Shown: positions 12,601 to 60,127 of the stretch, in pieces | How positions within the stretch are numbered: position 1 is the first letter of the stretch | Layout of the letters: each line of letters starts with the position of its first letter | DNA from: Odiellus spinosus | Taxonomy: Eukaryota; Arthropoda; Arachnida; Opiliones; Phalangiidae | Length of the DNA: 64,000 bases | Direction of reading: 5' to 3' | NCBI GenBank assembly: GCA_963920705.1 | Contig: OY987226.1 | Coordinates: forward strand, 30,566,424-30,630,423 | Made by a program: the position numbers and the translations under genes | Notes under the pieces: generated by a model | Database searches by the model: none | What the model was told of the DNA's origin: nothing | What the model saw: only the letters and a program-made list of their open reading frames with translations

Positions 12601-14766
12601 ATGCAACGAACTCCCACTCGCGTTGCGAACCATAATTGTACCCCTGAAGCTGGCAAGGAGTATAGTTGTACCAGTTGTTTATTAGCGTTTCAGGCAAAAC
12701 TGCGTCGCCAAAGAATGAACCAAAGGGGTATGGTAAACGAACCCGAGTTGGAACAAGTTGTAGCTAGAGAGCGGAATTTAATTGCTTTAGAGCAGGGTGA
12801 CATGGATGAAGGGAGTGGTGACGAGGAGTCATACCACGGTAGCCTCCATAACGGGAACGACGTAATGGCTAACAATAGCTTACTCGATGACCCTATAATT
12901 GAAGATGAAGAAAATTCGGAAACGACCGAAGTAGAAATGGTGACAGTATCGAAGGATTTATTAGAAAGTTTACAACGCCAATTGGCGGAATTAGAGAACA
13001 AAGTTCTTCTCCTTAGTGCCCCAACAAGTGCCCCAGCTATGAACACGACCCCGGTTTCCAATCGTAGTGGAACATCGGCTCGTGCGCATGGTGTTAGTGG
13101 CGGTACCTCTGTTAAAGGTATCGGAGGGACCGGGAATAATAGTCCTAGGGTCTCCTTTAGTAGTAGTTTTGGCCCTATTGTTCCAATTAATTCTAGTCCA
13201 ACGGGTGGGAATAGTAGTCCCGGGGCATCAAATAGTAGAAGCCATGCCTTTGTTGTAAACAATCACCAAAATGAAATCGATACAAATATTAATAGTCGCA
13301 CTTTAATTGATAATAGTTTAAATTCGTCTGGTAATGTCAGCCAGGGAGTGGCTAATAGTAGTGGTCAATTTCCTGTAGCTGGTAGTAATCAAGCCTCGCC
13401 CACTCGTGGTAGTCAGGCTTCGATGGGTAATAGTAGTGCCCCAAGTGTACAAATTAATCGTCAAAATAATAGCCAGTTATTACCCAATCTCAGTAATAGT
13501 CAGAATTCGGCGCCAAATAATGGCAGTATTCAAAATTTTGCGCCAAATAATAATAGTAGCGTAAATTTGTTGCCTAGTAGTTGTTACGTTCCGAATAATA
13601 GTCATATGAATCAAATGGTACCAAATAACAATAGTCAGCCATTAATTCAAAACAATTTTAGGCAATCTTATCCTATTCAATCGCAACCTAGTCAGATGTG
13701 TTTTCAAGGGAACCAAATGCCTCCCCAGAGTTTGAGTCAAAATAGCGGATCGTTACCCTACCCAGATAACGGTATTTTTCCTTTCACGTCGACCGTCGGT
13801 CAAAGCGCGGGATCTATCTCGATCGCTAGCGGTAGAGGCCCAAACCCTTACGGAGCCTCTGGTTATCAACCCATCCCCGTAGTAGGAACAAGCACGCAAG
13901 CTATAGGAAACCCGAACTTCCATCAGGGTGGTCCCTCCCAAAACGCCTGGGCCGGCGCGGTACAATTTCCTAAGTTAACCCTCCCTAGTTTTTCAGGGAA
14001 GCCGTCGGGAATGAGTACCCGCGAATTTTTGACAAAAGTTAAACAGATAAAAGATATAGTAGGATTGCCCGACGCACTTTTTATTCAACGTTTCGCTTCT
14101 TCCATGCTAATTGGACCGGCTTTGGAGTGGTGGTTCTCATTAATCATCAAGCCCGAGTCCCTGTTAGAATTTACTGACATGGTTAAGAAGGAATTTGCTT
14201 ATCAGGTTAATGATGCCTTAATTCGGGAGCAAATAATATCCCGCAAACAAAATAGAAAGGAAAGCGTCGCTGATTTTGTATCTAGCATGAGGGAATTAAT
14301 GCTCCAGATGGAAAAACCAATCTCCCCAGAGGAACAGGCCGCCGCTATTTTTAGGAGCCTTCATTGGGACTTTAAAATTCATATGTCAGAGAAAGAGCGA
14401 TATAATAACGTGTGGGAACTATTATCACACGCTTCTAGAGTGGAATTAATAGTTAACGGTACCGTGGCAAATAGTCCCAATGATAGGCGTAGCGTAGGGA
14501 CCTACCAAAACAATGCGGACCCAGCTATAGGAAATTCATTGAATATCGGGAGATATAGTGAGCGGAATAATCGCGGAGCTGGTTTCGAGATGCAATGTTT
14601 TAATTGCAATCAAAGAGGTCATAAGACCCCAAATTGTCCCACAGTTAAATGCGCCGGGTGTGGCGTATTGGGACACTTAAAACGTAGTTGTCCAAAAGAG
14701 TTGCAGGGAAACGCAAACCGGGGAGGTGTCCAATCAGACGCGACCCTCCCCAAAACAAGGTATTAA
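12601..14766 (+). CDS. gag: Gag polyprotein of Ty3/Gypsy element
   Basis: An intact 721-residue ORF begins at the first ATG after the LTR and PBS. An N-terminal segment with a coiled-coil-like stretch (residues 115-145) is followed by a long Ser/Asn/Gln-rich linker (about 150-450). A retrotransposon Gag capsid-like region follows (about 460-620, with EWWFSL and a charged RKQNRKESV segment). Two CCHC zinc knuckles lie near the C-terminus: CFNCNQRGHKTPNC and CAGCGVLGHLKRSC. Gag forms the particle and binds element RNA. Its end overlaps the pol frame by about 79 nt, and pol is in the -1 frame relative to gag, as is usual when frameshifting supplies Gag-Pol. The 300-residue low-complexity linker is unusually long. 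Confidence 0.93.
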   Translation: MQRTPTRVANHNCTPEAGKEYSCTSCLLAFQAKLRRQRMNQRGMVNEPELEQVVARERNLIALEQGDMDEGSGDEESYHGSLHNGNDVMANNSLLDDPIIEDEENSETTEVEMVTVSKDLLESLQRQLAELENKVLLLSAPTSAPAMNTTPVSNRSGTSARAHGVSGGTSVKGIGGTGNNSPRVSFSSSFGPIVPINSSPTGGNSSPGASNSRSHAFVVNNHQNEIDTNINSRTLIDNSLNSSGNVSQGVANSSGQFPVAGSNQASPTRGSQASMGNSSAPSVQINRQNNSQLLPNLSNSQNSAPNNGSIQNFAPNNNSSVNLLPSSCYVPNNSHMNQMVPNNNSQPLIQNNFRQSYPIQSQPSQMCFQGNQMPPQSLSQNSGSLPYPDNGIFPFTSTVGQSAGSISIASGRGPNPYGASGYQPIPVVGTSTQAIGNPNFHQGGPSQNAWAGAVQFPKLTLPSFSGKPSGMSTREFLTKVKQIKDIVGLPDALFIQRFASSMLIGPALEWWFSLIIKPESLLEFTDMVKKEFAYQVNDALIREQIISRKQNRKESVADFVSSMRELMLQMEKPISPEEQAAAIFRSLHWDFKIHMSEKERYNNVWELLSHASRVELIVNGTVANSPNDRRSVGTYQNNADPAIGNSLNIGRYSERNNRGAGFEMQCFNCNQRGHKTPNCPTVKCAGCGVLGHLKRSCPKELQGNANRGGVQSDATLPKTRY

Positions 14767-17700
14767 TTTTGAAAAGTGACCCTTTCATAGCCGATTGCTT
14801 TAACGCGAGTGATTATTATAGCACACATAAAGCCCTTCTCGATATAACCGTAGGGGGTATTCCCATAGTAGCTTTAATTGATTCAGGTAGTACAGTAACA
14901 TTATTAGATAGTAAACTTAATGATAATTTAAAACAATTAGGATTTAAAAGTAAACCCACCAAGTTAAAATTAAGGGTAGTGAATAAAAAAAAGTGCATTT
15001 CGAGGGAAGCTACTCAAGTTAAATTTCAACTCCCTGGAAAAAAAATCACTCACGAAGCAATCGTGCTAGAAAATATCGCCTACCCGTGCATTCTTGGAAT
15101 GGACTTTTTGACTAAAACGGGTATGGTAGTTAATTTTAAAGAATTGTCGTTTAGTTGGATAGATTGCCCCAGTAATTCTTACGATTTCCTTCACACCGGT
15201 AATAACGTCGAATTAAGCGAGTGTCATCTGTTTGAGGACGAGGAATTTGACGGGGAGGAGATAAATAAAGCGATTAATGACGCCCCCAACGATGAGGCGC
15301 AGCGAGAACAATTAAGGTCCCTCGTTCTCCGATATAAGTGCGTTTTTTCGAAAAACCCTGGTTGCGCTAAGTCGGTCTACCATTATGTAGATACCGGAGA
15401 TTGCGCGCCCATCTCCTGTCCCCCCTATAGATATTCCCCTCACAAGAAGGAAGCGGTTGACGAAATCATAAAAGAAATGCTAGAGTTAGATTTAATAGAA
15501 CCGTGTAACAGCCCTTGGAGCGCGTAGTTCTGTTAATTAAAAAACCAGACGGAAAATACCGTCTTTGTATTGACTATAGGAAACTGAATAACGTAACTAG
15601 GTCCGACGCGTACCCCTTACCTAGAATCGAAGATATTTTGGAATCTGTTAGATCACCCGATTTTATCACCGTTCTCGATATGAGAGCGGGCTACTGGCAG
15701 ATTCCGTTGCACGAGGGAAGCCGCGACACGTGCGCGTTTGTAACTCACCAGGGAATATTTAGACCTAAGGTATTAATGTTTGGACTTAAAAACGCTCCGG
15801 CTAGCTTTGTTAGAATTGTTAACAATCTTTTTTCCAAATTGTCTAACGAGGGAGTCTTTGATTATTTCGATGACCTGTACAAATATCGGATAATTTCGAA
15901 GACCATTTAGATAGCGTGGAAAAAGTGCTTGACACGTTGAAAACCGAAGGTTTAACTATTAAGTCCTCAAAAACCCAATTTTGTAGGAAAAAGGCCCACC
16001 TCCTAGGCCATCTAGTTTCCAAGGCTGGAATAGAAGTAGATCCGGAAAAGGTAGAAGTTATTGCTAATTATCCAGTACCCCGAACCGTGCGTCAGCTCCG
16101 TCGATTTTTGGGAATGGCGGGTTTTTATCGGCGATTCATAAAAAACTTTTCGGATATAGCTACACCTCTATATCATTTAACGCACGACAATATTAGCTGG
16201 GAATGGGGCACGGTGCAACAAGAGGCCTTTGAACTATTGAAAAGGCATTTGACTAACGCGCCCATAATAGCCTCCCCGAATTTCGACCTTCCCTTTACTT
16301 TGTACACAGACGCTAGCAACAGCGGACTAGGCGCTATTTTAATGCAGGAGATTGATGAAAACAACAGAGTAGTGCAGTACGCAAGTAAGACCCTTGATCA
16401 GGCTCAAAGAAACTATTCGGTCACCGAGAGAGAAACTTTGGCAATTGTTTGGGCGGTAGAAAAATTTAGAGTATATTTGGAGGGTAAACCTTTTACAATT
16501 TTTACTGATCATAAATCGCTTGAGTGGCTGAAAAATGCCAAGGATCCTACGGGAAAGTTCACACGCTGGAGTACAAGGCTTCAAGCCTTTGATTTCAAGA
16601 TAGTATACACTCCGGGAAAACTCAATGTAGTAGCGGATGCGCTGTCGCGTATTCCGGAATCCAACGACCCTTCAATGTGTTTTGAAGAAACTAATCTGAT
16701 TGACCTTAGTACCCCTGACCCTTTAGAATTAGATAGAGAGGCAATTATCGAGGCACAGACAACAGATAAACAAATTAGTAGACTTAAAAAGTTTATAGAA
16801 AGTGGAGATTTCGGAGAACGGGATAAAATTGGTAATTGGGTGAAACGAATAGGACCTTCTTGCAGCCTGGTCGATGGTATCATCTATAGAGATGTTGTAT
16901 TAAGCCATGCGGGCGAAGAAGAGAACCTTTGTAGTAGAATAATAGTGCCCCGAAGTCTAAGAAAAACTGTCATGTCTGCTTGCCACGATATCCCTGCGTC
17001 GGGTCATCAAGGGAAAAGTAAAACGTTAGAGAGAACAAGGAAATATTATACGTGGGAAGGAATGACGAAAGAATTAGCTAGATACGTCAGATCCTGCAAA
17101 ATTTGTCAGGAACACAAAGCCCCACGCGAGAAAGAGGCGGGATTTATGAAATCCGCGGAACCCTCGAAACCTTGGGAAGTAATTGGTGTAGACCTTAAAG
17201 GAGAGTATCCCAGGAGTAAGAAGGGGAACACCTTTATTTTAGTCATTATAGATTACGCTACCAAGTGGGTAGAGGCCTTTCCTTTAAAAAAGGCTACGTC
17301 TCGTAACATCGCGAATTGTCTGGTTAACGAGGCATTCACTAGGTTCGGAGTTCCCAAGATTATGATTAGTGATAATGGTACCCAATTTGTATCTAACCTT
17401 ATGAAGGAAGTATGCAAATTGTTCGGTGTGAAACAGCGCTTGACCTCTTTTTACTCTCCCCGTGGTAACCAAACTGAGAGGGCTAATCAGAACTTGGGAA
17501 TGATGATCAAATGCTACGTTAAACATAGTCATCAGTATTGGGACGAAGGCTTGCCTCAATTTTTGATGGCGCAAAGATCGTCAAAAAATGACTCTACCGG
17601 TTTTTTGCCGGCATTTTTAAATTTTGGGAGAGAGATCCGAGAAGCCCCTATAATGAACGTGGAACTTAAAATTAGTCCCTTATGCGAGCAAGTAACGCCC

Positions 17701-18150
17701 CTAGCTAGGGCTAAAATTATAAGTAAGGCCATAAAAGCCTCGCACCAAAATTTGAAGACCGCGCAAGAGAAAAACGCCAAATATTTCAATAAGAAAAGGC
17801 GCGAATTCGAATTTAATCAGGGTGATAAAGTTTTAAAACGGACCCATTTTCAATCTTCGGCAGGAAAGAGATTCTGCGCGAAATTAGCGAAAAGTTGGGA
17901 AGGGCCGTATCTCATTGAGATGAAATTATCTCCCCACACTTATAGATTGTGTACTCTTGACAAGGGAAAACAATTAAAGGGAACATTTAACATTCGTGAG
18001 TTAAAACCCTTCATAGAAAGAGAGGTCGAAGGAGTCTCCGAGAACCTTCAACCCCCCACACCTCTGTCAAAAAACAAGCCAAAAATCGTTAGGCCACCAC
18101 CTGACGATGGCTTCCATATGACTCTAAGATCAAGGGGTAACCCTCAGTAG
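14688..18150 (+). pseudogene. pol: Pol polyprotein (PR-RT-RH-IN), two frameshifts
   Basis: Block 1 (14688-15527) holds the aspartic protease (LIDSGSTVTLLD) and the approach to reverse transcriptase. Block 2 (15515-15910) contains the RT core, including LCIDYRKLN and the YFDD active-site box. Block 3 (15916-18150) runs from the RT thumb (FLGMAGFYRRF) through RNase H (LYTDASNSGLGA, FTDHKSL). It continues with the integrase HHCC zinc site (CHDIPASGHQG..CKICQEH), a DDE core (GVDLKG, SDNGTQF, QTERANQ) and a C-terminal domain. One-base deletions just before 15523 and near 15885 put the three blocks in different frames; otherwise the gene is complete. This copy cannot make full Pol, but the near-identical LTRs show recent activity. 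No env follows. Confidence 0.93.
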
Positions 18151-48904: not shown

Positions 48905-49053
48905 CGCCCGGGCCACCCTACCAAACCTCTATATCGCGCCCGACCCCTATCCCTACTCCTACGATACCGCTAACGGCGGCCGGCCAGACTACTTACCCAA
49001 GGGTCTCTCACAAGAAAGTAAAACGTGGCAAACGTAGAAATAAAAGATTGCTC

Positions 49054-52000
49054 ATGCAACACAGACTGGGCTTCATCAATATGCAGGGCGGTCGGTGCGA
49101 TGCGAAATGGGAGGAGTTAGCCGGCGTCATGGCAAAGGACGGGATTCACGTCTTTGCCGTGGCTGAAACTCACCTCAGAGAGGGCGAAACCCCGCCAATT
49201 CCTGGAGGCCTCCAGTGGACAAGTTTAAATTGCGCTCGTGGTCAGAAAGGGGGTGGCGGTCTAGGGGTCTTATCCACTGAAGCTATCAATATCACTAAAC
49301 GGTGCAAAGAGCATTTTTGGTTCACAACGGAGGCCGACCCGTCGACCCACATTGCAGCCGTATACTGTGCTTCTGGCCGCTCCCAAGAGGTCCACGACTG
49401 GAACGAGGCTATTTACGCATGCTTAACCACAGATATCGAGGCTATCGGACGTGAACACAGGGTATGCCTCGTAGGTGACTTCAATGGGCATATTGCCGAG
49501 CTCCCGCGGGAGGACCAGACCGGGGAACACCTCGACGAAAATGGTAATGGTCGCCTGCTAAAAGCATTCGCTACGGACAATGACCTCTGCATCGGCAACC
49601 TGTCCCCTAAATGTTCTGGGCGGTTTACATGGCAAGGCGCTACGTCACGTACGACGATAGATTATGTGCTATGCTCTGACGCTTTCGCGGTGGTCCTTGA
49701 CTCCATCACTATAGACGACCAAAGGCATAGTACAATAGGCAGCGATCACAACTCGATCGTTCTCAGGTGGCGAGGGCACCGCCCTCGGGCCCTGCTCTCC
49801 GCCCCCGCTGCCGCCAAGTCTACATGGAACTTACACGACAAAGAGGCTCTCCTAAACCTCTCCGCCTACATGGAATCCTGCGCCACAATAGGACTCAAAA
49901 CATATGATGCGTTTACTTCCGCGTTATACACCGGGATGTCGCTTCATCTCAAACGTAAGGTGGTGTCGGGGCAGACCCACAAGGGATACCAACCAAAAAG
50001 ATGGTGGGATGCGGACGTCGCGGCCGCTATGGCGGAAAGGAAACGTCTCAATCGCCTACACCGGCTTAGTGTTCGGCAAGGAGACCCCCCTACGGTTATC
50101 AAAGACCATTGGGCCACATACCAACGGGCAAAACCTACCGTTAAGTCAACAATCCAGAACAAAATACGTAAGACACACCGAGCAACCGAAAAAGAAATCT
50201 TGGAAGCTGGGAAGGAGAAAGGCCGGAAATTCTGGAGGTACCTCAAAAAGTTACGACGCCAAGGAACTATGCTTGAAAAGAGACTTAAGGGCGTCCGCTC
50301 GAAAACCGGAACTCTTTTTACTACTCAAACTGACATCGTACACCGCATAGTTGAATTCGTTCATGACCTAGAAACAGACCTGCTAAGTACGCCGCGAGTT
50401 ACCCTTCCGTCAGAGGCCGCACCGAATACTCTCGCCACAACCCAAACAGTAATGTCAGACCCCTTACTTGAGTCCCAGGAGGACGATATGAACGACGCTT
50501 TCACCTGCGTGGAGCTTCAGGTGGTCCTAAAACACCTTAAAACCGGAAAGGCGGCTGGGGTAGATTCAATACACGCCGAAACTCTTAAGAGTCTGGGCCC
50601 TCAAGCCAGACTCGCGCTACTCAACATACTGAACGACCAGCGGTTCGACCGCGCGATCCCGGATGCGTGGAAAAGTGCTAGAGTCACCCTTTTATATAAG
50701 GGTAAGGCAAAGGACGACACTGACCTTTCTTCCTACCGCCCAATTGCCGTGTCATCAGTCATATATAAGGTGTATGCCCTGCTCATGAAGAATCGCTTAA
50801 GCCCTTTCTTGGAAAGAAATAACCTTCTCCACGACGCTCAAATGGGGTTTCGCCCAAATCGTCGTCTCGCAGACAGCATTTTCATCATCACAAAACTTAT
50901 CGACCTCTCCCAGCGTCAGGGCACGCCCCTAGAAGTGGTTTTTCTAGACATCCAGAAGGCGTACGATAGCGTAGACCGAGACCGCCTCTGGGACACACTC
51001 TTGGAAAAAGGGGTACCTGCCGCTTTCGTGGCGGACTTTCGGTGCCTATACGCTACTTGCACCTACCAATACTCGCTCGATGGGTTTACCACCCCTCTCG
51101 TGCCCAGCCTCGTAGGCCTCAAACAGGGGTGCCCCCTCTCAACGGTCCTCTTCATCGCGTACATTGATAAGCTGGCTGTAAATCTGTGTAATTTACAGTT
51201 GGGTGCCACCCTTCCAGCCGTAGGGAACGGGGAAGCTACGATGGTCTCATGTCTTTGCTATGCCGATGACATTGTCCTCCTTGCCAACTCCCGCCCAGCC
51301 ATGCAGATCCTACTAAACGTGTGTACGAAGTTTACCAGATCGACTGGACTCCGCTTCAGTCCAGAAAAATCCAACTCGCTCTCCTTCCACAGAAAGGGAT
51401 TCGCCCCGCCATTTAGGCTCCAGGATTTCTACGTGCCGGAAGTGGAGGAGTACGTCTACTTGGGGGTCAAACTAACAAATGTTGGACATTACCTCAGCCG
51501 CGCGGCTACGGACCTCACTAAAAAATCAAATTCCCTTAGATGGGCCATAAGGAACCTAGCCGAAGGTTCCTACAATAAATACTCCGTAGCTCGCACTCTT
51601 TGGAAAGCAGTGGCGGTCCCCGCGCTTACACATGGGAATGAAGTCCTGTGCTTCCCCATGACGGTGTCAACTACCTTAGAACGTGTCCAAACGCTGGTCG
51701 GAAAAACGGCGCTGAACGCGGCCCCCATGGCGGCCAATGCTGCGGTCCAAGGGGAGATGGGCTGGAGCACTATGGAGGCGCGAGAGGCTAAATCAAAGCT
51801 CAAATACCTGGGCAGGCTAAAATTCCTCCCAGACGACACGGTCACGAGACAGGTGTATACGTCGATCCGCGGCAACGGGCTGTCCACTGATTGGACTACA
51901 CGCGTCTCTGCCCTCGACCGGAAAAATGGCAAGGGAACAGAAAGAGGCCTTTCGACATCATACAACCAGTGGGCGCACACAGTCGAAGGGGAAGTGCGTG

Positions 52001-52439
52001 AACACGCGGAACGCATCTGGCGGTCGGCGGTATGCAATAAAGAGAGCCTTAACACATACCGCGCTAAACAAACCCCGTCCCCAGAGTTCTTTTATAATGG
52101 CTCCTTTAGCTCGGGCCTCCTTTTCCAAGCGCGTACGGGCTCCCTCCTGACCGCGGTCCAAGGTTTGGGGACTTCTCCTCGACGTGCCGGTTATGCGATA
52201 ACGCGGCCGAAGACCTGTACCATGTGCTTTTCGAGTGCCCGGCGACTGGTCGGGATACCGCCATACAAGCATGGCGAGAAAAAAACTGCGATACGCCCTT
52301 GCCCGAGGTACTAGGTCTATCAACGACCGACTGGTCTAAAGACTTAGTCCAGCAAATCCTACGCAGTTGGCAAGCCCTGAAAACCGCCTGGCGACGTCAC
52401 CACCACGACATCAACGACAACGACGACGTAACTAACTAA
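49054..52439 (+). pseudogene. ORF2: APE endonuclease-reverse transcriptase, late frameshift
   Basis: The N-terminal 240 residues are an APE-type endonuclease (FINMQGG, AVAETHL, LVGDFNGH, TIDYVL, SDHNSI). The reverse transcriptase follows, with KAAGVD, SSYRPIAV, FLDIQKAYD, LKQGCPLS and the active-site box CYADDIV, then the thumb. A C-terminal zinc-knuckle-like motif, CRLCDNAAEDLYHVLFECP, is in a different frame. A one-base change near 52165 makes the long frame run on to 52314 with a nonsense tail. The true frame continues 52224-52439 to TAA. All enzymatic domains are therefore intact. I cannot name the clade with confidence. Confidence 0.85.
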
Positions 52440-52481: not shown

Positions 52482-52519
52482 CATAGACTAAGAACGGGTT
52501 TCACCCTGGACACGCGACG
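52482..52519 (+). repeat. Left terminal inverted repeat, 38 bp
   Basis: Begins CATAGACTAAGAAC; exact inverse of 58114-58151. Confidence 0.95.
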
Positions 52520-52915
52520 GGCAGCTATCTCCGCCTTCCACTGTAGTTTGCCAGATTTTTAAAAAAGTTATGGAACTTGGTGGGGCAGTTCGCTGGCGCC
52601 TCTGGCGGTCATCAGGCCAATTATTGTAGCTGCGCAGGCGCGTTAGCAGTTTCCGGCCTATTTCCGGAATCCGGAGTTTTTTTTTAAGGTTTTTTTTCTG
52701 TTACGGAAATTATTATACGAGCGGGCTCTTTGCTGAGTTTTTATGTTGTTTGCTACATAAATACCTTATGAAGTGATGTAGAGATATCTACCTAATTACA
52801 GCATGATTACAGGTATGTTAGTTAATGACGATATGTAACATTAGCGTTCAGAAAATTATTGTTAATGTTAATATTATTTTATATTCTTAAGCCTTTGTTG
52901 TTTACCTATGGAAAA

Positions 52916-55676
52916 ATGCCAAAAAACAAGAACTGTATTTATCTAGGCTGTCGAAGCGACAGTCGTTATGCAGAGAAAGAATACATGCAAAACGTGTTCT
53001 TTGTACCATTTCCCAAACCAAAAAGAAATTATTTAAAATGTGTTCGGTGGCTTCATTGGCTGGATCGTCCTGACTTTAACACTGAACGAGTTAATTCTAG
53101 TACTTTTGTTTGCTCAAAACATTTTGAAGGATTTGTGGGGCCCTCAGAAAAGTTTCCAGATCCAATATACGGAGTTACGGAAGAATTTAGTTTGAGAAGA
53201 AACCAATCTGTTCGAGTCAACAAATCTAGCATGATATCACCGCCTTCAGAATTGGAAATCGGTTTAACTGTAGAAATAGGTAACTCTAGTGAAAATGAAG
53301 ATTGCAATGATAACATTGAAACGTCACTTTTACCCTCGTACAAATTGGACCACAACTATTGTTTTAACGAAAACAATAGTAATAGTTGCCTCAAGATTGA
53401 TAAAATAAACAAACTACTAAACTTTAAACTGCCATTAACATGGTGCCTAACGTTTATTCCAGATGGAATGTGTCTTTTTAAATTAAATTTAAAAACAAAT
53501 CAGATAATTCTGAAGTTGACCATTGATAACGTACTTTCCTTGAAATTAGAGGTACTCAATATTGTAACTACCAGCCATACGCTTATGGAAGATTTCCCAA
53601 CTCTTATTTCATCAAAAAGAATCCTTTTAAAATGCTTAGAATACTTGGATAAATTATATGTCTGTTCAGGTAATGAAACCCTAGAACACATAAAACATTT
53701 TGAACGAATGAATTCGAAGGCAATATCAATGTGTCCTTTTACATTAACATTGCGGCATGCCAAATGTGAGCTTCTATCCAAAACACCAGTATGCCCAAAA
53801 TGTGTCCCGTTAAAACACGAGTTTCATTTGCTCTTGAAAAGAAAACGAGCAATCGACGAAGCTAATCCAATTAAAAAACCAAGGTTGATAAATATGAATA
53901 AAGGTGAACTTATATCCAGCTTAAAGGAATCAATTTCTGTAAAGGAAAAGCTGTTAAAAGAAAATGAAAAACTAAAACAAACAATACAATCAATTCAATT
54001 GAAAATTGAAAACAAGGGAAAGGAGATTGATATACAAAACCATTCTACGATGATAAAAATTCTCGAAAAGCATGTTGAACAACTACCGGAAAAAAAGCGA
54101 TTTGCTGATTTATTTTTGGAAACCCAATTAAAAATTTTAAAAGAAAAAAATCCGACACAACGACGCTGGCATCCGTTAGTAGTCCAATGGTGTCTATTTA
54201 TGTACAGAAAATCACCATCTCTTTACAAAATTCTACGAGAAACAGAAACGTTGAAGCTACCAGGAACAAACACGTTATTTCGTCACAATATTGAGTTTCA
54301 AAGTAAACCAGGCTTCCAGGATAAAATATTTAAACAAATGGTCGATGAAATAAATCCAAGTTCTCTTCCACCACATCAACAATATTTTTGTCTCTTGTTA
54401 GACGAAATAAAAATAAAAGAAGATCTTGTCTACAAAAAAGGTTCCGGTGATTTAATTGGATATACTAAGCTAAACGACACCTACGAACAAATTGACGCAA
54501 TGAAAGACCAAACCACACAAGAAAAACCACTGGCAACGCATGCTTTAATGTTAATGCTTCGTGGAGCAACCTCTAATTTTAAATACCCAGTAGCATATTT
54601 TGCAACTAACTCCCTCACAGCTGAAACACTTTCAAGCATTGTTTGGGAAGCGGTAAAAAATCTTGAGTTATGTGGTTTGAAAATATTGTGTATCATCGGA
54701 GATGGAGCTTCAACAAATAGAAGATTTTTTACGAAGAACAGCACAGCAGAGATCAATTACAAATGTGAAAATCCTTATTCTCTTGAAGAAAGAAATATTT
54801 TTTTCATTTTTGATGTACCACATTTACTAAAAACTGCAAGGAATTGCGTAAACAGCAGTACGGATAACTGTGCAGTTCGAAAGTTACGTATAAATGGGCA
54901 AGACATCCTATGGTCAACCTTTGAGGAAGTGTTTAATTTGGAACAAGCCACTAAAGGAAATTTAAGACAACTTCATAAGCTAATGATAGAGCACATTAAG
55001 TTAACTCCATTCAGCAAAATGCGTGTTAAATATGCTAGTCAAGTTCTTTCCCAATCAATGGCAAATTTTCTAAAAAACCATATGGATTTTGGAGATAAAG
55101 TGTCAGAAACCATAAAATTCGTCGAACTATTTAATAAATGGTTTGATATACTAAACACTAGAAATTGCACGGAAGGATTTTACTCCAGGAATCCGAATCT
55201 CTATCCATTCAAAAGTGTTAATGACAACCGTCTTAAGTGGCTGGAAAATGAGTTTATACCATATTTACAGAATTGGGAAGAACAAATTAGAACCCTACCA
55301 GGAGAATTTACTACAACCGAACGGAATCGTATGTTTCTAAGCCGGGAAACATACACAGGCCTAATTCAAACAAGTAATTTAACAAACAGTTATATTTAAA
55401 TTGTCAAATTCTAAGTCTTAAATTTATATTTTTACAGCCAAAGCAATGCTCGAGATTGTGCCATTTTTAATTAATAAGGGGGCAAAATATGTTTTAACAC
55501 GTCATTTTAATCAAGATCCCTTGGAACACGAGTTTAGCCTTCACCGACAAGCTTGTGGCTCAGCGACAAATCCCACGTTAGACCAGTTTTCTACCAGCGT
55601 TGGAAACTTAAACCAACTAAAAAGCGCAAATTTGAAAATTTCTGTATATGGAGGAAATACTGAACAAATATATTAA
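52916..55676 (+). CDS. THAP-domain P-element transposase, two exons, open
   Basis: Exons 52916-55373 and 55438-55676, joined across a 64-bp GT-AG intron in phase, give 898 residues, close to the usual length of THAP9-like transposases (about 900). The THAP domain is at the N-terminus (CIYLGC, WLHWLDRP, CSKHFEG). A coiled-coil segment lies near residues 340-390. The RNase H-like catalytic region follows, with candidate acids D in CLLLDEIKI, D in IIGDGAST and E in NQDPLEHEF; the last lies in exon 2, so splicing is needed for a complete active site. The frame opens upstream of 52916, but this ATG starts directly before the THAP motif. No stop or frameshift was found. It should bind the element ends and catalyse excision and insertion. 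Confidence 0.88.
55374..55437 (+). other. Intron of the P-type transposase
   Basis: The donor is GTAATTT; the acceptor is TTTTTACAG. Both sides are in phase 1. The unspliced frame ends at TAA 55397-55399, giving an 827-residue product without the final catalytic Glu. Retention of the homologous type of intron makes a repressor in Drosophila P elements, so regulated splicing here is a reasonable inference. Confidence 0.75.
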
Positions 55677-55880
55677 ATTAAATTGATTAAACTATTAGTT
55701 TATGTAAATCATTTCAGGCACAAAATTTTAGGAACCTCTTTATTTTAAAAATATCACAATTAAAATAATAGGACTTCTTACTAGGCATGTCGGGAGTACT
55801 TGATTTAGGTAGAATACTTGATCGAGCTTGGAGTTCATTAAACAACTTAAAATATCACAATTTAAAATTAGGACTTCTTA

Positions 55881-55911
55881 CATAGACTAAGAACGGGTTT
55901 CTTAGTCTATG
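55881..55911. mobile_element. 31-bp micro-element 1 (TIR tips only)
   Basis: Two 14-bp arms (CATAGACTAAGAAC and its inverse, one mismatch) joined by GGG. The arms equal the first 14 bp of the host transposon's terminal repeats. CTTCTTA at 55874-55880 and 55912-55918 is an exact 7-bp target duplication. Confidence 0.88.
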
Positions 55912-55919
55912 CTTCTTAC

Positions 55920-55950
55920 CATAGACTAAGAACGGGGTTCTTAGTCTATG
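55920..55950. mobile_element. 31-bp micro-element 2 (TIR tips only)
   Basis: Perfect 14-bp arms around GGG, differing from micro-element 1 by one base. TTCTTAC at 55913-55919 and 55951-55957 is an exact 7-bp target duplication. Removing both micro-elements and one copy of each duplication gives GGACTTCTTACTAGG, which is present as a paralogous empty site at 55771-55785. Confidence 0.88.
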
Positions 55951-56174
55951 TTCTTACTAGGAATACTTGATCGAGCTTCGAGTTGAGTATTCAAGTCGAG
56001 GCTCGATAACTAAAATTTATTTTTTACCTTGCCAGTTGCCACAAATTTTAATAAAATATCTCGCTTTATTTACCCTGTTAACTCGATACTCAAAATGTAA
56101 AATTTTTGATCCTCGAAGCTCGACTCGAAACCCGAAATCAAGGCTCGCACATACCTACAAAATATTGCATTTTA

Positions 56175-57918
56175 CTAAAAGTTATAGCTATCTGCTAGGG
56201 CTTTTCTAATTCTTTCTTTGGAATTAATCACAGATTTTGCTTTGGATTTGTTTAATTTCCTTCTTGCTTCAGATTTAAAGGCATTGTGGAGTTTCTTTCT
56301 TTCGCCATTCCCGATTGTATTGCAAACAGTATTCACAACTAGTTTTAATAATTTGGTTTCTGTTGTTAGAGACATTCCACAGGGTTTGCAAAAAGAATTC
56401 CATTTCTTTAAAATGTAAGCACTTTTAAAAACATTTTCTACAGCTTTCAATTTTTTGTTTTCAATGCACTTGCCATCGTAAAAACGTGCAATTATGTCGA
56501 GCATGAAATTAAAAAAATAAAATGCTTCATGAGAGCAGTATATTAATCCTCCACGGTCTTGGATTGTAGTCCAGCCATCAGGTAGATTACATTTTGATCC
56601 CTCGCGGAATTTTAGAACCGTTTCAAGAGATTGCCCTTCATTATGCGTAAGAAGTTTTCTTAAGACTGATCCAATAACGTAATGCCACGTCTCTGATGAT
56701 TCATTGTGATAGCGAGGTTTTTCTGGTTCATCTTGTTTAGCTGTCATCTTTGGTTTGAATGAGATAAATTTCTTGAAAACTTCATCAATTAAAATTCGGA
56801 CAGCGACTTGTTTTGCTTTCTGAGTCAAGGAATCATTTACCTGCTAATTTAATATATGTTAGAAGATATCTATTACGCGCAAATACAAAATAAACTTACA
56901 CCAAGAATTGAAATGAAATACTTTATTTCATTTGTAGTTTGATTAAAAATTGAGACTTTATCCCAGTAACGTTCATGGGATATCCCAGTAAAGTTTTCAC
57001 TTAAAACCTTTTCCCAATACATAATATCCGCAGTTGAAAGTGTTTTCAGCCAACATGTCATATTTTTGTTTTCAGCTGTGTGGAATGGTCGTTCTATCGA
57101 TGCCAATGTTTTTATACATTCAGCAAAGAACTCCTCGGAACATTCCAGAAATTCATTTCCTAAAGAAGTTTATTTTTTTTTCAGTTACAGAAACTACATT
57201 TGCCTAACATTTCCCGCGATATACTTTTCGGGAAAATTAACAATACTAAAATATTCTATACAATTTAAACAATTAAGCTGGGTTTTCCAAGGAGCAGGTA
57301 GCTCAATAATCGAGTGGCGCCGAGAAAAAACTTTCCCGCTAAACGAGTCGCTACCCCCTTCGATGAGATATTCTCATTTCGTTTAATTTTTATCGCACCC
57401 GCTGGATTTTTACCCGAAACCTGCTCCTTTGAAAACCCCGCTTTACACCTACGACTCATTGTGTTGTTCACTAATTTCTTCTTCCTGGGTGTTTTCTCTC
57501 TAATTGAAATAATTTAAAATAAATTTAATTGCTTGGTTAATAGTTAGTTTAAAGAGAGGTTTTACTTTTGATTTTCTTTTTCCATTATCTCCCTTTGTAT
57601 ACATTTCTTACATACAATCGAAGTTTCTGTTGGTTCTAGGCCTTTAATTTCGCCAAATAATTCATCGTCTATCATAAAATAAAATACCATTTCTGTTAAA
57701 TAATAAATTGAATAAGTAAAGATGTAAGATTAAGATACCTGAAAGCATTGCATCAAAATTTTCTTTCTGAATCAGCCTTACAGAATCGAGCCCAATTGGG
57801 GCAGCATCTGATTTACCGTCACAGCCTAAAATCCATATATTATTATTAAAACAGAATAGTAAAAATGGGAATAAATAATAAACCTACCATTAATAATTTC
57901 AGTGGTATCGTTGTTCAT
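56175..57918 (-). CDS. Second gene of P-type element, six exons, unknown function
   Basis: On the minus strand, exons 57918-57888, 57825-57739, 57692-57566, 57499-57414, 57159-56900 and 56840-56175 join in phase through GT-AG introns to 418 residues, starting MNNDTTEIING and ending ALADSYNF. The exon 4 donor (57414) is the least certain; an alternative GTAGGT lies slightly upstream. Visible features are a CKKC pair in exon 3 (possible zinc site), a basic KTPRKKK stretch, FLECSEEFF, FHTAENKNMTCWL, and a Lys/Arg-rich C-terminal segment. I do not recognise the family. The last exon alone has 222 open codons. Its position inside the TIRs, converging on the transposase gene, indicates an element-encoded accessory protein. 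Captured host cargo is the alternative. Confidence 0.7.
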
Positions 57919-58113
57919 AATTCATTACTTCATTTACAATTATAGCCAAGGCCTAAATTAGGGAGCTAAACATGCAGCGCGAACGGAAATTGACAAGATT
58001 ATGGGATATAGACATCCGGGTAGAGATGGTCACGTGGTAAGGAAGAGCGCACCACCGAAACGTACTAGTAGCGCCTCTATCGGCAATAACAGTTACTAAT
58101 GACGTAAGGAGCA

Positions 58114-58151
58114 CGTCGCGTGTCCAGGGTGAAACCCGTTCTTAGTCTATG
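58114..58151 (-). repeat. Right terminal inverted repeat, 38 bp
   Basis: Exact inverse of 52482-52519, followed by target duplication GTCTGTC. Confidence 0.95.
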
Positions 58152-58456: not shown

Positions 58457-60127
58457 ATGTCAAGCTGGGGTAGGAAATGTGCCGTATTGGGTTGTAAAAG
58501 TAGTGATAGAGATAATAGGGAGTGGAAATTAGAAAAATGTCAAGATCATTCTGATCCTGGCCAAGGCTTAACAGTGTTACATAAAGATTGCCCTTGCAAA
58601 GCCCCATGCTCATTGCATATATTTCCCAAAAATTAAATATTAAAAAAACGATGGTTGGAAGCGCTCGACAGACCAAATTATGTACCAGGAAAAAATGCTG
58701 TTGTAAGTATTTGTTACGGAAGTAAAACCTTTTTACCCATAGTAATTATTAAACGTTACAAACTGTATTTAAGTATGCTCACTTCATTTCATTGTGAGAA
58801 AGCCCACTGAACGCTACCCCATTCCCAGCATTGACCTGGATATGGAATGGAAGCCAAATCGTAAACTTAAAAGATCTCTTAATTCCAGCTCTACTGACGA
58901 TAATACACCATCAAAAAAATCATGTACAGAAGATGACTTGGACAGTGCCAGAGATATAAATACATCGAGTTCAACCGCTAATAACTCCATTTTTGAAATA
59001 TCTCACTCCACTTCTTTTGGATCAGGAATGGAAAATGAAAGTTTTAATATGTCAGATGTGTCAGTTACCAGTGAGATACAACCTATTTGCATATGCTCAA
59101 AAAAAGTAATGATTTCGTTCGGAACGCAGTATGAAAATCCTATAGAGACAACTAACAGTCAAACTCAGTGGCAAGACCCATCTTTGTTAGGTCACAACTA
59201 TTCCGATCAACGTCTCTTAAAACCACTTTCAAGTCACAATATTGCAATTCAAGTTGAAATGCACGAATACCATCGTGTTAGTTTTACACGGGTTTGGATC
59301 TTGGCCGTTTTGAGAAGCTAGTGGAAGTTTTATCTAAAAATACAATCAATGTTCCTTGTTCAATGGAATTAAGAGATCAAATATTTTTGGTGCTTATCAA
59401 ACTTAGGCTAAACCTTCTGTTTCAAGATTTGGGTCGTAGGTTTTACATTTCCGGATCTCTTGCTGGTAGAATATTTAAATACTGGTTGGATGTCATGTAC
59501 GATAAGCTTTCGGATTTGATATGTTGGTTACCTCGTGAAACTATTTATAGTAGTTCACCAACAACCTTCAAAGTGAATTACCCATTGACAACTTGCGTCA
59601 TCGATTGTACAGAAGTGTTTGTACAAAGACCCAGGAAATTAAGAGCAAGAGCGTTAACTTATTTCAATTACAAGAGTCACAATACTATGAAGGCATTCAC
59701 AGCAATAGCGCCAAATGGTTATATTATGCTAATTTCTCGTTGTTTTGGAGGGAGAACAAGTGATAATTTTATCACAAGGGACTGCGGTTTTTACAAATAC
59801 TTATTACCTGGTGATGAAGTAATGGCAGACCGGGGTTTCACTGTAGCTGAAGACCTTGAATTCATTCAAGTTAAACTTAATATTCCTGCGTTTACTAGAG
59901 GTAAGGATCAGTTAGAAGAGGAAGACGTTACCAAGACTAGGCGAATAGCCACTGTAAGGATAGAGGTTGAAAGAGTTATAGGAAAGCTGAAAAACTATAG
60001 AATATTAAAAGGAGTTTTACCATTGACATTTGCAAAAAAAGTGGATAAAATTATGACAGTGTGCGGAGCTTTATGTAATTTGCAATCTACTATTGCTGGT
60101 AAAAATTCAAAAAATTCAATAAAATAG
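58457..60127 (+). pseudogene. ISL2EU-like THAP/DDE transposase, broken
   Basis: Exon 1 (58457-58706) encodes the first part of a THAP domain (CAVLGCKSS, HIFPKN, RWLEALDRPNY) with a premature TAA at 58634-58636. A 67-bp intron (GTATTT..TTTAAG) leads to exon 2 at 58774, completing THAP with CSLHF and PTERYPIPS. A Ser/Asn-rich linker follows. A one-base deletion near 59281 shifts the frame; the rest (59294-60127) is an open DDE domain of the DDE_Tnp_4 type. Its landmarks are CVIDCTEVFVQRP, FGGRTSDNFI, VMADRGFTV and the terminal RIEVERVIGKLK (acids D, D, E). The THAP stop and the frameshift disable it. Confidence 0.8.

Follow-up and report, generated by a model that had tools for sequence, protein, structure and literature searches.

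We found that two 31-bp structures, E1 and E2, which lie in tandem inside a P-superfamily transposon of Odiellus spinosus, are very probably fossil excision footprints of P-superfamily elements, in which short remnants of the two element tips were sealed together between intact copies of a 7-bp target duplication. Both lie in a 64,000-nt stretch of genomic DNA (hereafter the window, whose numbering is used for all coordinates without a contig label), which belongs to an assembly of 443 Mb in 286 contigs. With the other tip-only loci of this genome, they make up a set of about 30 candidate scars whose joints can be identified, and through which P-type excision and its repair outside the laboratory can be read from natural fossils.

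The transposon that carries E1 and E2, referred to here as the parent, spans 52482–58151 on the (+) strand (5670 bp). Its inverted tips begin CATAGACTAAGAACGGGTTTCACCC and are enclosed by an exact 7-bp target duplication, GTCTGTC. The transposase open reading frame (ORF) at 52859–55399 on the (+) strand carries THAP, TNP-like RNase H and GTP-binding domains. Searched from the ATG at 52916, it scored above the Pfam cut-offs for PF05485, PF21787 and PF21788, and it matched the solved Drosophila P transposase, 6p5a, with an E value of 5.2e-19 (phmmer). The parent therefore combines the features expected of the P-element superfamily, namely a THAP domain with a P-type transposase core that bears a GTP-binding insertion, and terminal inverted repeats with a target duplication of 7–8 bp. 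An exact 7-bp duplication was present in all six long AAC-type copies examined. Inside the parent there is also a minus-strand ORF (56175–56828), perhaps one piece of a multi-exon gene, for which no Pfam family was matched. Elsewhere in the window we noted a non-LTR retrotransposon ORF with endonuclease and reverse transcriptase (49048–52314) that stops about 170 bp short of the P element, a DDE_Tnp_4 transposase ORF just past the P element (59294–60127), and an LTR retrotransposon with gag and pol-like ORFs in separate frames (12601–18150).

E1 and E2 lie past the main ORF of the parent. E1 (CATAGACTAAGAACGGGTTTCTTAGTCTATG, 55881–55911) has CTTCTTA on both sides (55874–55880 and 55912–55918), and E2 (CATAGACTAAGAACGGGGTTCTTAGTCTATG, 55920–55950) has TTCTTAC on both sides (55913–55919 and 55951–55957), the right target copy of E1 overlapping the left copy of E2; all of these are on the (+) strand. 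Both duplications are exact and equal in length to that of the parent, as an initial annotation of this DNA had recognized. The same annotation described each structure as 14 bp of the terminal repeat, GGG and the inverse 14 bp, and derived both from the termini of the parent. The derivation holds, and the description is perfect for E2; in E1 the right arm departs from the parent tip by one mismatch. Stepwise removal of the two structures with their extra target copies gives GGACTTCTTACTAGG, which, as had also been proposed, stands uninterrupted at 55771–55785 on the (+) strand in a real local duplicate. This empty-site paralogue comprises about 38 bp aligned up to and over the target, 27 bp unique to one copy, and 24 bp with one mismatch. 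We dismissed a chance hairpin, in agreement with the initial annotation: the 14-base tip with up to two mismatches occurs six times in the window, against a mean of 0.41 in shuffled sequence (0 of 100 shuffles reach six), and the genome-wide pattern of two closely spaced tips described below has a control count of 0.

Each structure consists of a prefix of the terminal repeat followed by the reverse complement of another prefix. At E2 the joint is made of exactly 17 + 14 terminal bases with an overlap of 0, and at E1 of 21 + 13 terminal bases with three (TTC) in common. Two independent events, at CTTCTTA and at TTCTTAC, give the observed sequence with no edits. The E1–E2 pair might instead stem from a single footprint if a 39-bp unit was then duplicated in tandem and two small mutations followed, and the best path of this kind reaches the observed sequence in two edits. 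One of those edits, however, must yield a perfect 7-bp target duplication and the other must convert one terminal-repeat joint into another, and we consider this history rather unlikely; in our judgement two events are clearly favoured over one. The initial annotation had spoken of two successive insertions, and of this claim the two events fit without any extra change, whereas the notion that the inserting elements were themselves 31-bp, tip-only elements is unsupported.

To place E1 and E2 in the history of the parent, we turned to its other copies. Exact matches to the 17-base tip are present at 25 places in the genome, of which 12 are forward and 13 reverse (control, 0). There are four full parent copies, each of 5670 bp, on contigs C1, C2 (the window), C18 and C45; relative to the window copy, the remaining three have 3, 4 and 3 differing positions, and the four occupy four sites, each with its own exact 7-bp duplication. 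E1 and E2 are present in all four. A 471-bp query across the region matched those four places only, and with this query no parent copy lacking E1 and E2 was found in the genome. E1 and E2 are therefore older than the spread of those copies. The initial annotation had counted the same hairpin in all copies of the parent, with no empty-site allele, as evidence against insertion; as far as alleles are concerned this is what we found, and the empty site is represented by the internal duplicate only. Searches of the one genome with the parent region and with the flanks of locus L027 gave no filled-site allele; of the 46 matches to the 639 bp around L027, which we searched for a filled or empty allele, most are to other tips and to fragments of repeats at low identity.

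A functional hairpin of the parent, a terminator or regulatory element that merely resembles the tips, would also fit the occurrence of E1 and E2 in every parent copy found and their position between the transposase gene and the minus-strand ORF. The exact 7-bp duplications, the uninterrupted local duplicate and the similar structures at unrelated sites point instead to an insertion-derived origin, and a hairpin of this kind is very improbable as an explanation of E1 and E2. Later use of an insertion-derived hairpin by the parent is possible.

Relatives of the parent vary in length. The longer internally deleted derivatives whose existence the initial annotation had raised were found twice, on C5 (1219 bp) and on C7 (654 bp), both enclosed by an exact duplication of 7 bp. 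Short elements with AAA tips form a larger set, of which five were read (L032–L036; 257–437 bp). When up to one mismatch is allowed, there are 214 forward and 194 reverse tips, compared with 54 and 41 in the controls.

Structures made of tips only are also found outside the parent. Two exact 9-base tips with a gap of at most 30 bases occur at 17 places in the genome (control, 0), eight of which are E1 and E2 in the four parents and nine of which are other loci. The exact 31-bp sequences of E1 and E2 were found genome-wide in parent copies only, which goes against their description in the initial annotation as micro-elements. With looser patterns and reading of regions we assembled 31 tip-only loci, counting E1 and E2 once each; these are a non-random sample, as the searches require at least one well-kept tip and near-tipless scars would escape. 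The loci are 17–53 bp long and their joints differ. Tabulation of the flanking 7-mers bears out the duplication length proposed from E1 and E2, in that 24 of the 31 loci have a 7-bp duplication that is exact (17) or has one mismatch (7); three have two mismatches and four have three or more. Among the first 28 loci, 22 have at most one flank mismatch; in 10,000 shuffled flank pairings the mean number of such loci was 1.2 and the maximum 7. The seven loci with two or more mismatches include L072, the only CCAAG case of 31 bp (3 mismatches). Two loci retained in the 31, L051 (24 bp, 6 flank mismatches) and L081 (5 mismatches), are probably chance or decayed.

Longer forms are few. Matches with exact 9-base tips and a length of 49–79 bp are solely the E1–E2 span (4 places), those of 80–110 bp occur at one place (control, 1), and those of 111–141 bp at two places, one of them family-like (control, 2). 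Because lengths of 49–141 bp are near-empty or at control level, the tip-only forms look like a separate class and not the small end of a continuum. The longest scar seen, L082 (53 bp), has CCAAG tips and is invisible to those spacing patterns. A further pattern, CATAGAC N0–14 GTCTATG, gave 59 matches per strand; 50 of the 59 places were listed, and of ten that were fetched L037 and L042 were retained. Most of the places listed are CATAGACATGTCTATG-type palindromes. We dropped L038–L041 and L044–L046, in which the inner sequence is foreign to the family and every 7-bp repeat has at least two mismatches; L044, L045 and L046 are CATAGACATGTCTATG-type palindromes, all three in one other dispersed repeat. 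C1:22548884 was dropped as the end of a longer MITE (L035). We set aside L043 (G000:C7:22399580-22399606), a 27-bp palindrome, CATAGACATATATATTATATGTCTATG, that has a different inner sequence and an exact 8-bp direct repeat, GGCCCAAC, on either side; it is possibly a footprint left by a different P-type family, one whose duplications are 8 bp long. L015 and L016 have the same 7-bp duplication, ATTTTAC, with unlike outer flanks. Among the scar duplications, many begin with AT or GT or finish with AC, which suggests that there may be a target preference.

We next compared the joints between the tips. Several have bases common to both prefixes: 25 + 18 terminal bases with four in common at L015, 18 + 26 with five at L031 and at L065, 21 + 14 with four at L028 and at L072, and 8 + 15 with two at L042. 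L070 joins 20 + 18 bases with an overlap of 0. Filler is present at L016 (50 bp; 23 + 20 bases and seven filler bases that match neither tip), at L026 (21 + 10, two filler bases) and at L071 (22 + 15, two filler bases). L042 is one of three short forms; the other two are L037 (17 bp), with at most 8 + 11 terminal bases and two in common, and L075 (23 bp), with 18 + 4 bases and one filler base, and at both of these the duplication is exact. Overall, mostly 8–26 terminal bases are left. The flanks of L016, once joined, align without a gap across the join to a paralogue in L037, in which a single target copy carries one substitution.

Particular joints recur. We enumerated all joints that keep 8–30 bases, for the P tip and for the AAA (MITE) tip. 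With microhomology of at least 3 bp, the P tip is predicted to give joints of 39 bp (ACCC), 31 bp (TTC) and 30 bp (GTT), and the AAA tip joints of 39 bp (ACCCT) and 31 bp (TTTC), each with mirror forms. The recurrent joints (39 bp with ACCC; 31 bp with TTC or TTTC) are the best microhomology joints that the terminal repeat permits, and the 39- and 31-bp joints were found with AAC tips (L015; E1), with AAA tips (L031; L028) and with CCAAG tips (L065 and L068; L072). Microhomology of at least 3 bp is present in 6 of 14 sequences hand-picked as distinct and undecayed (the other 17 of the 31 were omitted as decayed or as duplicate kinds), against 1.6–2.4% of the possible joints keeping 8–25 bases. 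The binomial tail for 6 of 14 is 5e-7 at 2.4%, 3e-5 at 5% and 1.5e-3 at 10%, values to be taken as approximate, given that the 14 are a selection from 31.

These loci could also be read as tip-only elements of 31 or 39 bp that were inserted by a P-type transposase, each with its 7-bp duplication. Exact target duplications and empty-site paralogues would be expected from such insertions, and the 39-bp form, found at 12 places within three mismatches with two identical CCAAG copies (L065 and L068), has the abundance that a small mobile family would give. Microhomology preference explains that abundance too, and several observations argue against insertion and for excision footprints: exact E1 and E2 were found only in parent copies; the joints vary by locus; L037 and L075 keep too little to resemble elements, yet their duplications are exact; L016 contains filler, and its site exists uninterrupted in the L037 paralogue; and the recurring forms are those that microhomology favours, in subfamilies with three kinds of tip. 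The 14–25 bases kept are, moreover, far below the end lengths given for deleted P elements of D. melanogaster, in which at least 138 bp at the 5′ end and 216 bp at the 3′ end are reported as necessary, and for Anopheles P-MITEs, in which less than 100 bp is kept per end (PMC1562414). We consequently rejected a 31-bp mobile element as the main reading, and insertion of tip-only elements is improbable. It is likewise improbable that the 39-bp form in particular is a genuine mobile micro-transposon, which would have a P-type transposase pair and move some 18–25 terminal bases per side; were it so, the tip alone would suffice for transposition in this lineage. Such a form would, to our knowledge, be among the smallest cut-and-paste elements known.

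Excision footprints, by comparison, are products that the published biochemistry of P elements predicts. The cut made by P transposase lies 17 bp within the inverted repeat, and P proper makes an 8-bp target duplication (PMC7776569); once a P element has been excised, the donor ends bear non-complementary 3′ tails of 17 nt (PMC2895639). E1 and E2 keep both target copies, exactly, around short tip remnants, and the joints across the set vary, with microhomology or filler, near the position of a 17-nt cut, several keeping 18–25 bases on one side. Applied to the parent, a full-length or long deleted element with AAC-type tips would have inserted at CTTCTTA (or TTCTTAC) in an ancestral copy, where 7 bp became duplicated. 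The transposase would then have excised this element so that either side of the break bore an element-tip tail (of 17 nt in Drosophila P), and end joining would have sealed the gap, through 3-bp microhomology at E1 and without it at E2, so that about 17–21 bases of one tip and 10–14 of the other were retained. This would most likely have happened twice, at overlapping targets, and the doubly scarred element would later have spread to at least four sites. The initial annotation had remarked that elements as short as E1 and E2 should hardly allow synapsis of their ends; with a longer mobile unit that later left, this problem disappears.

The tips give some indication of which elements departed. 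Judging from the AAC arms of E1 and E2, their source was probably the parent's own family and not the commoner AAA elements. For the CCAAG scars a source is available, since CCAAG ends also exist outside scars, on separate longer elements (left-type, L076; right-type, L078 and L093); the 273-bp element in L087, which lies in an exact duplication of 7 bp, likewise has CCAAG at one end. Of the 38 CCAAG tip hits, 33 were read (all but the single hits C14:7545206, C18:4798966, C18:7486025, C274:647535 and C283:136884); these include no complete element in which both tips are CCAAG, and the sole distant exact CCAAG pair read is an interrupted 39-mer, L073 (G000:C12:15088897-15089241). This 39-bp CCAAG scar, which has the exact duplication CTCCTAG and was left out of the 31 loci, appears to be split by an insert of about 306 bp; the insert contains a long palindrome.

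Several observations count against footprints. The 39-bp form is common; neither a filled-site allele nor, among the hits read, a complete element with CCAAG at both ends was seen; seven of the 31 loci have two or more flank mismatches; and common products among the fly junctions discussed below have almost no tip. In addition, one tip contributes 18–25 bases at E1, the 39-bp forms and L016, which exceeds 17 and calls for some repair synthesis or a longer stagger. E1 requires a minimum of 18 bases from one tip, and the 39-bp form 22–25, for which a bare 17-nt tail is insufficient. In the 39-bp form, CCC would pair with the GGG that ends the other 17-nt tail, and a templated tail extension of about 8 nt may have preceded joining. 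Either a short phase of repair synthesis before joining, as in flies, in which synthesis-dependent strand annealing (SDSA) is combined with end joining (PMC2895639), or a slightly deeper cut by the transposase could account for the excess.

Together, these data suggest that a P lineage whose duplications are 7 bp long also undergoes long staggered cutting and end joining that retains tips, and that excisions and the pathways of their repair can be inferred from one assembly. They also call for caution, as a short palindrome with a perfect target duplication need not mark the insertion of a short element. The mechanism itself is already established, and the footprints are most likely of a known kind, encountered here as natural fossils.

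The closest counterparts are the repair junctions of Drosophila P{wa}, which share with the present loci intact target copies, 14–17 tip bases and joints that are microhomologous, blunt or filled (PMC2895639). In Table 1 of that study, from flies lacking Rad51, both 8-bp target copies stand intact around 14 + 2 + 14 tip bases in 14 isolates, and its other junctions include similar forms, with 14–17 bases per tip and short microhomology, blunt joints or filler. The fly junctions also include common products with almost no tip, of a kind undetectable by the present searches. Compared with the junctions described there, those of O. spinosus are natural fossils in a 443-Mb genome and have duplications of 7 bp instead of 8 bp; here the 39-bp joint with 22–25 bases of one tip is common, and two scars lie in tandem inside a parent copy. 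Galileo likewise belongs to the P superfamily and has a 7-bp target duplication (consensus GTAGTAC; PMC2775673); its terminal inverted repeats have been described as unusually long, whereas here, in the sequence that was read, about 40 bp is common to the tips. The P-MITEs described from Anopheles gambiae are, like the five of 257–437 bp here, short non-autonomous relatives of P, but with an 8-bp target duplication (PMC1562414). Finally, excision scars with deletions and filler have been catalogued from genome sequence before, in a comparison of rice genomes (PMC4423477); P is not among the superfamilies tabulated there (Mariner, Harbinger, Mutator, CACTA and hAT), and the overhangs are short.
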